From contig CAMLLF010000228.1 of NCBI GenBank assembly GCA_946480705.1, positions 1 to 6,725 of the forward strand: a DNA stretch of 6,725 bases. Direction: 5' to 3'. Position numbers and translations under genes: made by a program. This DNA is from an uncultured Lysobacteraceae bacterium (GTDB taxonomy: Bacteria; Pseudomonadota; Gammaproteobacteria; Xanthomonadales; Rhodanobacteraceae). Below are positions 3,264 to 6,725 of this stretch, in pieces (position 1 is the first letter of the stretch; every line of letters begins with the position of its first letter). A model generated the notes under the pieces. The model did not search any database and was not told where the DNA came from. It was given only the letters and a program-made list of their open reading frames with translations.

Positions 3264-3974
3264 CTAAGGTTTGCTGCCATCAGCCTCGACTACAAACCGA
3301 ATACTTCCTCCATTTACCTCTATAACTCGGATGACAGTGTCGCGAAATCGAATGGTCTTCAAGTCCGGCTCGTAGGTAAGATTTTGGCTGAAAGCCGGAC
3401 GCGCGTAGTCATTTAAGGTGTATTCCCTGTAGAGTAGATTGATCGCGTCCTTGGTCTTGCCGCTGTAGATGATTTCGTGGTTCGTGGCGATCGCGTCGGG
3501 GCGCACACGCCTGACGATTTTTCTCTCGAACTGGATTTCGCGCGGTCGGACGGCGATGAAGATATTGGCGCCGGCGCTGATGACCTTGTGCTGACCCTTC
3601 ACATAACCGATGAACAGGTTGTTCTCATCGATCATCAGCCGATAGTCTTTCAGCATCGGGCTCGGGAGTTCCAGCTCGGTGTACACCTTGCCGTTTAACG
3701 ACTCGGCGCCTTTCTTGCGTAACTCGGTTCCGGCGCCAAAGCGTGTGTCCGGCCCTACCGTGAGCTTGAACCAGAAGTCGACCGTCGGCGCATAGATCTC
3801 CTCGTCCCACGAGGACACCATGAACGACTTACTGCGGATCATCGGCTCACCGACGTACGACATCTTCTCTTCGCCGATGACGTAGTTCTTGTCCCCGATC
3901 TCGCGCGTCTGAAAGTCTGCTGCAGTAGCGGCCGAGCTTGCGAGCAAAAGCGTTGCTAAAAGTCGGGTCGACAT
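3264..3974 (-). CDS. exported protein of unknown function
   Basis: A 236-aa protein that begins with a clear Sec signal peptide: Arg at residue 4, hydrophobic LLATLLLASSAA, and a likely signal peptidase I site after ATA (residue 18), leaving mature ADFQTREIGD. There is no lipobox Cys, so the mature protein should be periplasmic or secreted. The body alternates charged and aromatic residues (SSWDEEIYAPTVDFWFKL, YRLMIDENNLFIGYVKG) and looks beta-rich; no family is recognised. The start at 3974 is chosen because AGGGGGAG (3977-3984, minus strand) precedes it and the signal peptide begins there. The reading frame stays open further upstream, but that extension would run through the structured region and antisense to the 92-aa gene. 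It is convergent with the toxin-immunity genes, and no terminator was found in the short gap after its stop. Confidence 0.88.
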   Translation of the reverse strand: MSTRLLATLLLASSAATAADFQTREIGDKNYVIGEEKMSYVGEPMIRSKSFMVSSWDEEIYAPTVDFWFKLTVGPDTRFGAGTELRKKGAESLNGKVYTELELPSPMLKDYRLMIDENNLFIGYVKGQHKVISAGANIFIAVRPREIQFERKIVRRVRPDAIATNHEIIYSGKTKDAINLLYREYTLNDYARPAFSQNLTYEPDLKTIRFRDTVIRVIEVNGGSIRFVVEADGSKP

Positions 3975-4006
3975 TACTCCCCCTGAAGTGTCGAGTACGC
4001 CAGAAA

Positions 4007-4012
4007 AGTATA
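4007..4012 (-). promoter_or_regulatory. putative -10 box for the exported-protein gene
   Basis: The minus strand reads TATACT here, five of six matches to TATAAT, placing a start near 4000 and leaving a leader of about 25 nt that contains the AGGGGGAG ribosome site. No good -35 lies at 17 nt; the nearest candidate is TTGCCG (4033-4038) at a 20-nt spacing. This is a weak call based on position and the -10 match. Confidence 0.35.
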
Positions 4013-4058
4013 GATCACAACTCTGCGGTCGGCGGCAATGCAACGAGCAATCCGTACC

Positions 4059-4087
4059 TTGACGAAGCTCGCAACCCGGTAAACAAT
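4059..4087 (+). promoter_or_regulatory. putative sigma-70-type promoter upstream of the C4-like RNA cassette
   Basis: TTGACG (4059-4064, five of six to TTGACA) is followed after exactly 17 nt by AACAAT (4082-4087, four of six to TATAAT). Transcription would begin near 4095 and run through the hairpin cluster, the C4-like RNA and the two small ORFs. TAAACA at 4080 with a 15-nt spacing is an alternative -10. It lies back to back with the putative minus-strand promoter. The assignment is by consensus match only. Confidence 0.35.
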
Positions 4088-4093
4088 CCGCCT

Positions 4094-4129
4094 GTTGCCA
4101 CCAATTAGGCAACCGGGCTTGGCGGCCCG
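4094..4129. repeat. two adjacent small inverted repeats
   Basis: GTTGCC (4094-4099) is inverted at GGCAAC (4108-4113) around an 8-nt loop. Immediately after, CGGGC (4114-4118) is inverted at GCCCG (4125-4129) around TTGGCG. They stand at the expected 5' end of the proposed + transcript and so could form a folded leader. TTAGGC also occurs twice, at 4105 and 4133. Stems of 5-6 bp are individually weak evidence. Confidence 0.4.
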
Positions 4130-4145
4130 AACTTAGGCGCACACA

Positions 4146-4196
4146 GCGCCGCACCGAACGTCGGCGTTTTTTTACGCCCGAAATTCGGTGCGGCGC
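4146..4196. repeat. 13-bp perfect inverted repeat with a nested hairpin and T7 run
   Basis: GCGCCGCACCGAA (4146-4158) is perfectly inverted at TTCGGTGCGGCGC (4184-4196). Inside the 25-nt loop, GGCGT (4163-4167) pairs with ACGCC (4174-4178), and T7 (4167-4173) overlaps that inner hairpin. An alternative fold on the + strand pairs CCGA (4154-4157) with TCGG (4161-4164) just before the T run, which would look like a weak terminator. The element lies between the putative + promoter and the C4-like RNA, so it may act as an attenuator, or it may be a REP-like palindrome. Confidence 0.6.
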
Positions 4197-4217
4197 GTTC
4201 TGCCGATTTCTGGCGGG

Positions 4218-4287
4218 CGGTGTGCGGGGAGCCGCAAGGCTCGCCGGTCCTAAGCCGGTCCGCCAACCTGCACACCGTTCGCCACCC
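4218..4287 (+). ncRNA. C4-like antisense RNA (phage P1/P7 c4 type)
   Basis: The sequence folds as a three-way junction. The outer stem is CGGTGTGC (4218-4225) with GCACACCG (4270-4277). Hairpin A is GAGCC-GCAA-GGCTC (4229-4242). Hairpin B is CCGG (4244-4247) with CCGG (4255-4258). The closing stem is followed by TTCGCCACCC, with a CCA like the 3' end of an RNase P substrate. Two segments, TGCGGGGAG (4223-4231) and TCGCCACCC (4279-4287), match a split antisense: together they are complementary, with one mismatch, to the contiguous 18 nt at 4302-4319 beside the ribosome site of the downstream ORF. In P1 and P7, C4 RNA is cut from the leader and uses two boxes to block translation of icd-ant. 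The length of about 70-77 nt fits. The identification comes from structure and complementarity recognised by eye; no covariance search was possible. Confidence 0.62.
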
Positions 4288-4301
4288 TCTTTCACCGTTT
4301 C

Positions 4302-4326
4302 GGGTGGCGACTCCACGCAAAGGGAG
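4302..4326 (+). promoter_or_regulatory. proposed antisense target (a'/b'-like boxes) and Shine-Dalgarno of the 32-aa ORF
   Basis: GGGTGGCGA (4302-4310) is the perfect complement of 4279-4287, and CTCCACGCA (4311-4319) is complementary at 8 of 9 positions to 4223-4231. The Shine-Dalgarno AGGGAG (4321-4326) follows one base later, six bases before ATG 4333. Pairing with the C4-like RNA, in cis or in trans, would cover the ribosome landing site. In cis, 4279-4287 and 4302-4310 form a 9-bp hairpin with a 14-nt loop. Confidence 0.55.
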
Positions 4327-4332
4327 TTGTCC

Positions 4333-4431
4333 ATGGATATTCGGTATGCGTTCCGCAGCATCGGCATCAGGTCCGGCTGCTTTGTCCGCATTGGCGGCGT
4401 TGTTCCTTCATCCACGAGGAGCGCGCCATGA
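4333..4431 (+). CDS. 32-aa small ORF, coupled leader of the 92-aa gene
   Basis: ATG 4333 is preceded by AGGGAG at an ideal 6-nt spacing. It encodes a basic 32-residue peptide (MDIRYAFRSIGIRSG... ending SSTRSAP), and its TGA (4429-4431) overlaps the next start codon as ATGA, a classic coupling arrangement. It occupies the position that icd has between c4 and ant in phage P1, but no sequence similarity to Icd is claimed. The peptide may be functional, or it may serve only to let ribosomes reach the next gene. The frame is open upstream to about 4222, but that part overlaps the structured RNA and is not expected to be translated. Confidence 0.55.
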   Translation: MDIRYAFRSIGIRSGCFVRIGGVVPSSTRSAP

Positions 4432-4706
4432 ATCGCCTCGGGTCTTTCTATCCGCTGCGCCGCGATGTCGTGTCGGCCGAGCCGGTGATGTTTGCGTATG
4501 TGCTGGATACGGCCGCGCAACGCGAAGCCTTGCAGGAAGAAATGCTGGACCGCATCGCTGCCATCCAGGCGCTCAGCGAAACGATGGCATCGGCGCAGCT
4601 CGAAGCGCCGGATTCACGCTCGCATGGCGGCATTCTCGAAGCGCTCGCGATTCTGTCGCGCGACGTGCGCGGGTTGATGGAAGCGAGTTTCCATCCGGGG
4701 CCTTGA
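4428..4706 (+). CDS. 92-aa hypothetical protein, end product of the C4-like cassette
   Basis: ATG 4428 has the Shine-Dalgarno GAGGAG (4416-4421) six bases upstream and overlaps the stop of the 32-aa ORF. The product has a short polar N-terminus with FYPLRRD, then a long amphipathic helix (residues about 27-56: AAQREALQEEMLDRIAAIQA), a small loop, and a second helix (about 67-87: GGILEALAILSRDVRGLMEA). This is the layout of a small helical-hairpin, possibly dimeric, protein. There is no signal peptide, membrane segment or cysteine. I recognise no family; its small helical form would suit a protein-binding or regulatory role (inference). An intrinsic terminator begins 10 nt after the stop, so it ends its transcript. 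Confidence 0.82.
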   Translation: MNRLGSFYPLRRDVVSAEPVMFAYVLDTAAQREALQEEMLDRIAAIQALSETMASAQLEAPDSRSHGGILEALAILSRDVRGLMEASFHPGP

Positions 4707-4716
4707 GGCTGTTGCT

Positions 4717-4755
4717 GCCGGAGCGGTGCTTTGCCGCTCCGGCCTTTGTGTTCTT
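4717..4755 (+). terminator. rho-independent terminator after the 92-aa gene
   Basis: GCCGGAGCGG (4717-4726) and CCGCTCCGGC (4734-4743) form a perfect 10-bp GC-rich stem with a 7-nt loop, followed by the T-rich tail CTTTGTGTTCTT. It starts 10 nt after TGA 4704-4706. Confidence 0.85.
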
Positions 4756-5201: not shown

Positions 5202-5919
5202 CCGGCGACGGCCGTCGTCGTTCCTGCGCCACTTTCGGCCGTCGCGCATCGGCCCGCGCGCTACGGGCCGGCCCCGTGGTAGCGGCGTGGCATTGACCTG
5301 ACCGCGAACGGCGCCCGGGCTGGAATCCCAGCCAGGCTCATTGGGGACGCTGCGGCGCCGCCAACGGCGCGAACCGCGCCGCAACGGCCGGGGCATTGGC
5401 ATGCATGATGCAGTCCCCGGGCGAGGTGGCCGGCGTCAATGCGCGCCGCCGCCGCACTGGCACGTCACGGGAGGGACGGTTCAACGCATACCTGGTCGAG
5501 CGCGAGCCGTTTACTGGCTTGTGGCCGCAACATCGTACTGAACCCGAGATGCGCCCGGATCGCGGCGACCGCCGCCGACTGTCGCAGGCTGCGTCATGTG
5601 CGCAATGCCCACGGCCGGTGCGATCTGGCCACGCGTTCCGCATTCGAGCCATCGAGGCGTGGGAAAAGATGCTGCGACGCGACGAGCGGTCTACCGAAGA
5701 TCGCTTTTCCGGGTCGGCCGGGACGCGGGAGCATGAAGCGCACCCCGCGGCCCGCCGAATCCGATCAATTCGAACCGCAGCCACCCGGGTGTCACCGATG
5801 ATCACGGCACTGCCGGCCGGGATGCAAACCGGCGGGGTGCGATGCTTGGCCAGAGTTACGCGCGCAGCTGTTGAAAGCGAGTGCGATTTTTCAGCGAATA
5901 TCAAACGGGGGAATCAAAA
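5202..5919. other. GC-rich intergenic region with no supported gene
   Basis: About 700 bases in which every long frame on either strand translates to an Arg/Ala/Ser-rich product without domains or a good ribosome site. A 6-bp hairpin GGCTGG-AATC-CCAGCC lies at 5318-5333. Near the 3' end, base composition becomes more A/T-rich. TTGAAA (5871-5876) could serve as the -35 of the gene at 5920, but no good -10 follows. The stretch may be decayed coding sequence. Confidence 0.5.
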
Positions 5920-6725
5920 ATGTTGTCTTGGAAACTCATTCCATTTTTTTTGCTGCTGGCGGCCACTCTGGGCAGCGCCAGCGCGCAAACCAGCAATAAC
6001 GCGGACACCTTCACCTACCAGGGCTATCTCAAACTCTCTGGAGAGCCCGTCGACGGCGTCTGTGATTTCCAGTTCAGCGTCCATGATGCGCTCACCAACG
6101 GATTCCAGATGGGCGTGTCACAAACGATTGCCGGCGTTCTGGTCACCGAAGGCGTCTTCAGCGCCCAGCTTCATATCTACGTTCCGGCGATTCCGCTCAG
6201 CATCTTCAACGGCCAGGACCGCTGGCTGCAGATCGCGGTCAATGACTGTGCCGGCGGCTCGAGCTTTACCACGCTTGCCCCGAGGCAGGTGATTACGCCC
6301 GCGCCGTATTCGTCCTATGCGATCTATGCAGGTACCGCAGCGACCATCGGCTGGTACAGCATTTCGAATATGCCGCCCGGCTTTGCCGACGGTATCGACA
6401 ACGACACGACCTATACCGCCGGTTCCGGCCTGACTCTCAACGGCACGCAGTTCAGCGTATCCGGCCTCGACTGGAACGCCCTGGGCAATGTTCCCGGCGG
6501 TTTTGCCGATGGTATCGACAACGACACCCTCTATACCGCGGGAACCGGCTTGAGCTTGAGCAGCAACCAATTCAGCATTTCAAATATCGGCTGGAACATG
6601 CTGAGCAACGTTCCTGCCGGGTTTGCCGACGGCGTCGACAACGACACCACGTACAGTGCCGGCGCAGGCCTGAATTTGACCGGGACGACGCTCAGCGTTC
6701 CTGCCAATACCTTCTGGAAGGCCGA
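5920..6725 (+). CDS. exported repeat protein with N-terminal FTYQGYL domain (3' partial)
   Basis: ATG 5920 follows GGGGGA (5907-5912) with a 7-nt spacing, and the frame is open to the window end (268 codons visible). Residues 1-22 form a signal peptide (LIPFFLLLAATLG core, cleavage after ASA). Residues about 29-135 match a style common in bacterial secreted proteins: TFTYQGYL, GEPVDGVCDFQFSVHDA, GVFSAQLH, FNGQDRWLQIAV, then APRQVITPAPYSSYA. The two Cys (in VCDF and NDCAGG) could form a disulfide. From residue 142 come three 40-residue repeats with W near the start and GFADG(I/V)DND plus Y(T/S)AG-x-GL. Proteins with this N-domain and tail-fibre-like repeats may carry a C-terminal trimerisation or autoprocessing domain; that part is beyond the window. 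Likely location is periplasmic, surface or secreted. The exact role is unknown. Confidence 0.9.
   Translation, partial: MLSWKLIPFFLLLAATLGSASAQTSNNADTFTYQGYLKLSGEPVDGVCDFQFSVHDALTNGFQMGVSQTIAGVLVTEGVFSAQLHIYVPAIPLSIFNGQDRWLQIAVNDCAGGSSFTTLAPRQVITPAPYSSYAIYAGTAATIGWYSISNMPPGFADGIDNDTTYTAGSGLTLNGTQFSVSGLDWNALGNVPGGFADGIDNDTLYTAGTGLSLSSNQFSISNIGWNMLSNVPAGFADGVDNDTTYSAGAGLNLTGTTLSVPANTFWKA
6343..6702 (+). repeat. three tandem 120-bp (40-aa) coding repeats
   Basis: The units are 6343-6462, 6463-6582 and 6583-6702, in register with codons and without gaps. Each reads W-x5-N(M/V)P-x-GFADG(I/V)DNDT-x-Y(T/S)AG-x-GL(T/S/N)L and then a variable (F/L)S(V/I) end. The GFADG(I/V)DNDT block is the best conserved. 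The DG(I/V)DND cluster resembles calcium-binding Asp/Asn-rich loops such as thrombospondin type 3 repeats, an analogy only. Confidence 0.9.

Follow-up and report, generated by a model that had tools for sequence, protein, structure and literature searches.

Multi-copy C4 antisense RNA cassettes of the Tahibacter clade appear to recognize their own leader RNAs

C4 antisense RNAs form a family described from phages, in which processing by RNase P yields an RNA of about 77 nt. In the immI operon of phage P1 (C4-icd-ant1; AF234172), the two boxes of C4 lie in a junction strand (a'; CTGTCAA) and in the P3 loop (b'; TCACTAAC), and the record annotates a1 and b1 sites upstream of C4, termed putative, as well as a2 and b2 sites downstream that match the same boxes. 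Upstream of C4, the P1 leader can form competing hairpins, while downstream a short open reading frame (icd) overlaps the next gene (ant1) by 4 nt. In the P4 CI system (seqA/seqC), a processed RNA of the operon pairs with an upstream site and thereby causes premature transcription termination, with a second site located downstream (as outlined in PMC4825925). The Gifsy-1 prophage locus IsrK/STnc1160/orf45/anrP comprises a leader RNA with a terminator, followed by a stable RNA and a short open reading frame that is translationally coupled to the next, antirepressor-like gene; modulation of the IsrK terminator by STnc1160 is raised in the accessible text as a possibility only, and a co-expression result was unfavourable to it (PMC4825925). 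Multi-copy chromosomal C4-like RNAs were already reported in Acinetobacter in 2016: A. baumannii carries 21 similar Group 1 sequences that differ in the a' loop and, based on RNA-seq, are apparently processed at a GG motif, with targets left open and no leader target assigned in the accessible parts of that report (PMC5320573).

A stretch of 6,725 nt from an uncultured Lysobacteraceae bacterium (contig CAMLLF010000228.1; the window) encodes a bona fide member of this RNA family. As the initial annotation had proposed from the fold, the locus is a C4 RNA: the match to the Rfam C4 covariance model (RF01695) covers model positions 1-87 and scores 64.8 bits (E 2.9e-11; gathering threshold 45). By analogy with the P1 annotation, the mature RNA is predicted at ~4212-4286, with GG at 4212 as the expected 5' end of the putatively processed form. 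The b' box occupies the P3 loop and the a' box an unpaired junction strand, and both are complementary to sites upstream of C4, a' to a1 and b' to b1 (Table 1); the best runs downstream are 5 (a') and 3 (b'). The 125 bases preceding C4 also contain matches below gathering to c4-a1b1 (RF03163; 4081-4133; 35.7 vs 46.7) and isrK (RF01394; 4094-4171; 40.0 vs 50), as expected for the leader of a C4 operon. Among 25 related loci, the gathering threshold is reached by c4-a1b1 in 11 and by isrK in four (L001, L010, L013 and L019).

Table 1. Features of the C4 cassette, with positions given in the window.
Feature	Position	Strand	Basis
Sigma-70-type promoter; -35 TTGACG (4059-4064), 17 bp spacer, -10 AACAAT (4082-4087)	4059..4087	+	Scan
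Leader hairpin 1, predicted start of IsrK-like leader	4094..4113	+	6 pairs, 100% paired in 24 loci
a1 target TTGGCGG, in loop of leader hairpin 2 (stem 4114-4117 with 4126-4129)	4119..4125	+	Match to a'
b1 target CTTAGG, overlapping antiterminator 5' arm	4132..4137	+	Match to b', covariation
Antiterminator hairpin GGCGC-ACACA-GCGCC (4136-4140 with 4146-4150)	4136..4150	+	Covariation
Predicted leader terminator, CGCCG (4147-4151) with CGGCG (4162-4166), then seven T	4147..4173	+	Conservation, folding
C4 antisense RNA	4206..4289	+	Rfam bounds, covariance model
b' box CCTAAG, P3 loop	4249..4254	+	P1 comparison, pairing with upstream b1
a' box CCGCCAA, unpaired junction strand	4260..4266	+	P1 comparison, covariation
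Local inverted repeat, C4 3' arm TCGCCACCC (4279-4287) with GGGTGGCGA (4302-4310)	4279..4310	+	
CTCC (4311-4314) facing GGAG (4323-4326), possible hairpin over Shine-Dalgarno AGGGAG (4321-4326)	4311..4326	+	Sequence
32-aa leader ORF, final 4 nt overlapping next start	4333..4431	+	ORF conservation
92-aa protein, Tahibacter-clade family, predicted two-helix hairpin	4428..4706	+	ORF, protein search, predicted structure
Cassette terminator	4717..4743	+	Terminator scan

The C4 RNA is part of a dispersed cassette of ~700 bp, in which a promoter, an IsrK-like leader containing a1 and b1, a predicted leader terminator, C4, a leader ORF, the gene for a 92-aa protein and a terminator follow one another. 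Only 4041-4749, from promoter to terminator, is homologous between the window and other loci, with homology ending by 4749; certain loci also have flanks in common, above all the pair L002 and L003. The promoter was the single one found by the scan (shuffles, mean 0.0); its TTGAC is present in 22 of the 24 aligned loci (absent from L015 and L019), with a -10 element that varies in a few. Five genomes, which contain most of the related loci, hold four to nine cassettes each and together encode 30 C4 RNAs (10, 6, 6, 4 and 4), all but one of which precede a member of the 92-aa family (29/30; the exception is L041). The family itself was present in 6 of the 99 relatives searched, including copies that lack C4. 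C4 scores at or above gathering in 23 of the 25 related loci; L024 and L025 carry the 92-aa gene with no C4 over threshold.

Downstream of C4, the cassette resembles the described operons in layout and differs from them in gene content. The leader ORF encodes 27-35 aa and starts 41-48 nt after C4 in all 30 loci, and its end never lies more than 8 nt from the main start, with an exact 4-nt overlap in 27. This corresponds to the overlap of icd and ant1 in P1 and is consistent with a putative translational coupling like that of Gifsy-1 (PMC4825925, accessible text). Searches of Pfam and PHROGs assigned the leader ORF to no family. For the 92-aa protein, helices are predicted at residues 29-59 and 67-88 (mean pLDDT 73.8; pTM 0.60). 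No Pfam match was obtained at E<=1, SymE included; one NCBIfam match lay far under its cut-off, and the best PHROG match (E 0.036) was to a family of unknown function. Its gene stands where P1 and Gifsy-1 have an antirepressor or antirepressor-like gene, and none of the scanned ORFs of the window (one minus-strand ORF within 3264-4032 was left out) is recognizable as an antirepressor, in agreement with the initial annotation. The protein search returned 76 relatives, of which the few that are named belong to Tahibacter or Rhodanobacteraceae. The 25 loci with such relatives come from genome contigs whose titles name Tahibacter, Rhodanobacteraceae, Lysobacteraceae or Lysobacterales, and no relatives were found in viral, phage or plasmid collections. 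The setting therefore looks chromosomal, as had been supposed.

Each copy of the cassette appears, from the pattern of sequence change among loci, to recognize its own upstream leader RNA and not the downstream ribosome site. Across 24 Tahibacter-type loci, the mean run of complementarity between b' and b1 is 6.25 for cognate and 3.53 for non-cognate pairs, and that between a' and a1 is 6.88 and 5.47, respectively; none of 20000 permutations reached either value. A run of at least 6 joins b' to its own b1 in 21 of these loci. Against the downstream region of the same 24 loci there is no cognate excess (the observed sums were reached in 17153 and 4235 of 20000 permutations), and P1-type a2 and b2 sites were not found in any of them (b' run of at least 6, 0/24; a' run of at least 7, 0/24). 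In the alignment, from the counts of which L015 was excluded for its non-homologous leader, the a1:a' helix is 98.2% paired with changes on both sides at three of seven pairs, and the antiterminator hairpin is 100% paired with such changes at two of five. Taken jointly over 24 loci, these two helices and the two leader hairpins are 99.4% paired, against 20.8-50.6% in slid-register controls. They contain 23 double-change cells, compared with 5.2 in alignment shuffles that leave the relatedness among loci in place (0/500), while further pair types do not exceed shuffles (9 vs 10.6). Pairing of a1 and b1 with the C4 boxes is thus supported by covariation, which does not in itself give the consequence of that pairing. 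A long hairpin (4146-4158 with 4184-4196) was also considered but is weakly supported, being 83.9% paired with double-change cells reached in 33 of 500 shuffles, and forms no part of the model.

Specificity resides chiefly in b'. There are 17 distinct P3 loops among the 24 loci, and only 22 of 552 non-cognate b' pairs reach a run of 6, compared with 236 of 552 for a'. Two pairs of loci share a b' box (L001 with L003, and L004 with L005), and a' differs within both. The most closely related copies illustrate the concerted change: L002 and L003 share a downstream flank that is 91.6% identical over 3767 bp and modules that are 93.3% identical, and nonetheless b1 and b' have switched together. Given that box and own target have diverged together, little cross-recognition is expected between most copies within a genome, which would thus be insulated. 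At L015 (1-165), C4 is retained behind an unrelated leader, with a1 and b1 lost.

The initial annotation had placed the recognition boxes elsewhere, at 4223-4231 (TGCGGGGAG) and 4279-4287 (TCGCCACCC), 47 bases apart, which would join over one target and block translation at the ribosome site of the leader ORF. Its positions and letters are accurate: joined, the segments form the reverse complement of 4302-4319 except at a single base (17/18), leaving one spacer base (4320) before the Shine-Dalgarno sequence. The match also exceeds chance: when the 60 bases that follow C4 were dinucleotide-shuffled 1000 times, no shuffle attained it (best 16), and the next best site for these fixed segments on either strand of the window reaches 14/18. 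As a regulatory pairing, however, it is improbable. The segments differ from the P1 boxes, whose homologues in the window match a1 and b1 upstream and lack a cognate downstream excess in the 24 loci, and in the predicted fold they are held in C4 stems (4223-4231 and 4279-4284) with only 4285-4287 unpaired. Moreover, the second half of the proposed target (CTCCACGCA), which would face the first box, differs in 8 of 25 loci. The box follows at one position in L021 alone, and six further loci carry this box change although their target has stayed the same at that position.

The remaining half of that match, a perfect 9-mer, is a local inverted repeat in cis between the 3' arm of C4 and the sequence that follows (Table 1). 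It is widely kept: a run of at least 7 is present in 24 of the 25 Tahibacter-type loci and, among 102 other C4 loci, in 36. Across these 102 it shows a cognate excess (6.38 vs 5.60; 0/5000 permutations). Both observations would also suit a pairing at the ribosome site; the strict run in P1 is 5. The C4 identity and the probable chromosomal setting put forward initially are supported, whereas the boxes were misplaced and the ribosome-site target is not supported. When split boxes were searched for as flexible 8-mers in 112 C4 loci, little signal was obtained (cognate mean 13.7, non-cognate 13.5 and shuffled 12.7 of 16; all 30 shuffles beaten in 25 loci). The possible CTCC/GGAG pairing over the Shine-Dalgarno sequence is kept in L017, L018 and L022, and L055 has CCCT with AGGG.

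The position of b1 in the leader suggests what its pairing with C4 may do. The 3' arm of the antiterminator hairpin is also used by the terminator-like hairpin preceding the seven T, and the two are consequently mutually exclusive. The terminator hairpin comprises 5 pairs around a loop of 10 bases and is 99.2% paired among loci, with one-sided (G-U) changes only; it was absent from the simple terminator scan, the loop limit of which is 8. Switching of the leader terminator by the antisense RNA, as described for P4 CI, is predicted by computed folds. Forcing b1 to be single-stranded raises mean terminator-arm pairing from 0.42 to 0.94 over 24 loci, with an increase above 0.05 in 23, compared with a mean of 0.48 for same-length blocks elsewhere (20/1061 equal the b1 block). 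In the window, where the free leader already favours the terminator, pairing rises from 0.83 to 0.97, a value that one control block out of 43 also attains. Most paralogues therefore show a stronger predicted switch than the window does. The same block shifts pairing from 0.66 to 0.98 in 27 dual-target loci that were hand-picked from the box/target match analysis (control 0.60; 83/1166 control blocks equal) and from 0.50 to 0.79 in the P1 leader. The attenuator layout of the window cassette recurs in P1 (L193, 440-530): its b1 overlaps the hairpin TGCGG-ACAA-CCGCA, and this hairpin is in competition with a terminator-like one upstream of C4, CCGCA..TGCGG-TATTTTT.

Because b1 overlaps the antiterminator and its blockage raises terminator-arm pairing, it is proposed that C4 causes termination in the leader. 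Under this model, which we judge to be probable, each cassette is self-contained: C4 would be cut from the read-through transcript, presumably by RNase P as in P1, and would pair with the nascent leader transcribed from the same cassette, through its P3 loop at b1 and through its junction strand at a1. Pairing at b1 would remove the antiterminator hairpin and allow the leader terminator to form, halting transcription upstream of C4 and the coding region and so closing a negative feedback loop. C4 thus probably shuts off transcription of its own cassette, by the mechanism described for P4 CI (PMC4825925, accessible text); the likeness is one of described mechanism. The opposite direction of control would follow from the very same pairing if a short leader RNA (~4094-4173), released by termination, were the active partner, either sponging free C4 or pairing with the C4 domain of the read-through mRNA through a1 and b1 and opening translation of the leader ORF. 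Such activation has been reported for IsrK and orf45-anrP of Gifsy-1, which have the same gene order (PMC4825925, accessible text), and it would fit both the b'/b1 and a'/a1 covariation and the isrK matches above gathering in four related leaders. It is nevertheless less likely, since it explains neither why b1 is located beside or within the antiterminator arm across aligned loci nor why blocking b1 increases terminator pairing, and the isrK score of the window itself is under gathering.

More widely, C4 loci fall into two kinds, which match their boxes either both ways or upstream only (chance rates: b' 0.07 upstream and 0.07 downstream; a' 0.10 upstream and 0.04 downstream). C4 exceeds the cut-off in 49 of 299 sampled genomes of the order, several of which have 6-14 copies, in 24 of 369 genomes of a class-level sample and in one of three genomes in the genus of G391; 110 of 113 loci could be parsed (L106, L108 and L147 were left out for an atypical fold). 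Besides P1, the both-ways group contains five distant Tahibacter loci (b' 5 upstream and 5 downstream), a set of 24 loci drawn one per genome except for three from G113 (b' 19 and 18; a' 23 and 18), and a class-level set of 18 (b' 17 and 15), the latter being those counted out of 24 after omission of L171, L175, L178, L186 and L191, in which C4 was not located by pattern, and of one unparsed locus. By comparison, the 24 main Tahibacter loci match upstream only (b' 21 and 0; a' 21 and 0), and 49 loci from ten multi-copy genomes of the order mostly do so (b' 34 and 4; a' 45 and 5), these being the counted part of 52 fetched from 107 C4 hits. In 41 of these 49 loci, the last 75 leader bases lack a run of four T. 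Intrinsic termination is therefore unlikely there, and the outcome of pairing may be different. In the ten genomes, each with 6-14 copies, the fetched C4s (L105-L141 and L145-L159) precede small ORFs mostly without a Pfam family, for example of a ~120-aa 'PWPERHQLPGRCLQLADADCALAGLRVV' type.

Could the cassette be what is left of a prophage in decay, with C4 kept by chance in a P1-like immunity operon after loss of the antirepressor? The description of the family from phages and the dual targets common to P1 and the distant Tahibacter paralogues would agree with such an origin. Decay is, however, hard to reconcile with concerted changes of box and target, a promoter, a conserved 92-aa protein without relatives in phage, plasmid or viral collections, and a leader ORF whose end coincides with the main start in all 30 loci. 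Of the 25 related loci, moreover, only L015 lacks a homologous leader, and this explanation is regarded as very improbable. The cassette instead represents a phage-type antisense RNA turned into a multi-copy bacterial gene cassette, with a proposed termination step. Whereas P1 is a phage locus with downstream sites, five bacterial genomes carry 4-10 C4 copies each, and copy-specific C4 cassettes without a2 and b2 constitute a distinct architecture, which also differs in this respect from P4 CI with its second downstream site (PMC4825925, accessible text). Covariation names a target for a multi-copy C4 set, namely the leader of each copy itself. The finding lends support to a transcription-terminating role for a1 and b1, sites that are only putative in the P1 record. 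No report of self-targeting multi-copy C4 cassettes was found in the literature searched, where most subscription papers lay outside reach, nor in the accessible portions of PMC5320573, PMC2864571, PMC4825925, PMC8201110 and PMC12197685.

A broader reading is offered tentatively, as possible though not favoured: that Xanthomonadales domesticated C4, on one or perhaps several occasions, as an attenuator that is insulated and self-addressed, and that the proteins it controls are dose-sensitive effectors. If so, copies would have spread through the genome, each then altering box and leader target in concert, and several to a dozen cassettes per genome would act as independent self-limiting switches, much as antisense copy-control systems of plasmids escape incompatibility. 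For the small, lineage-specific proteins, toxin or anti-phage roles would then be conceivable, as loci that combine C4 with SymE suggest.

Six such loci (L081, L084, L086, L089, L091 and L092), in which C4 lies directly upstream of a SymE-type toxin gene (PF08845), were observed among 94 first ORFs after C4 outside the Tahibacter family (96 candidates of 40-400 aa less L100 and L116). L081 was named by Pfam and the other five from 33-87% identity to it. The remaining assignments include two AntA, one Rha and one Bro-N, with six Pfam families in all at E 0.001 and several PHROG anti-repressor families. The six loci match their boxes both upstream and downstream, and their C4 RNAs are candidate type I antitoxins; SymE together with C4 antisense RNA was not found in the literature searched. 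In them, as in the window cassette, C4 precedes a protein gene, but the 92-aa protein of the window is not SymE.

Other genes of the window were also noted. Positions 52-2127 encode the end of an RHS-repeat-like protein, the C-terminal region of which weakly resembles PDDEXK and Holliday-junction nucleases (all matches below cut-off). It overlaps a 265-aa ORF (2124-2921) with no Pfam match, and the pair may represent a polymorphic toxin with the matching immunity protein. An ORF at 5881-6723, open at the window end, contains GFADGIDNDT.YTAGSGL-type repeats and has a fibre-like look, with no clear family.
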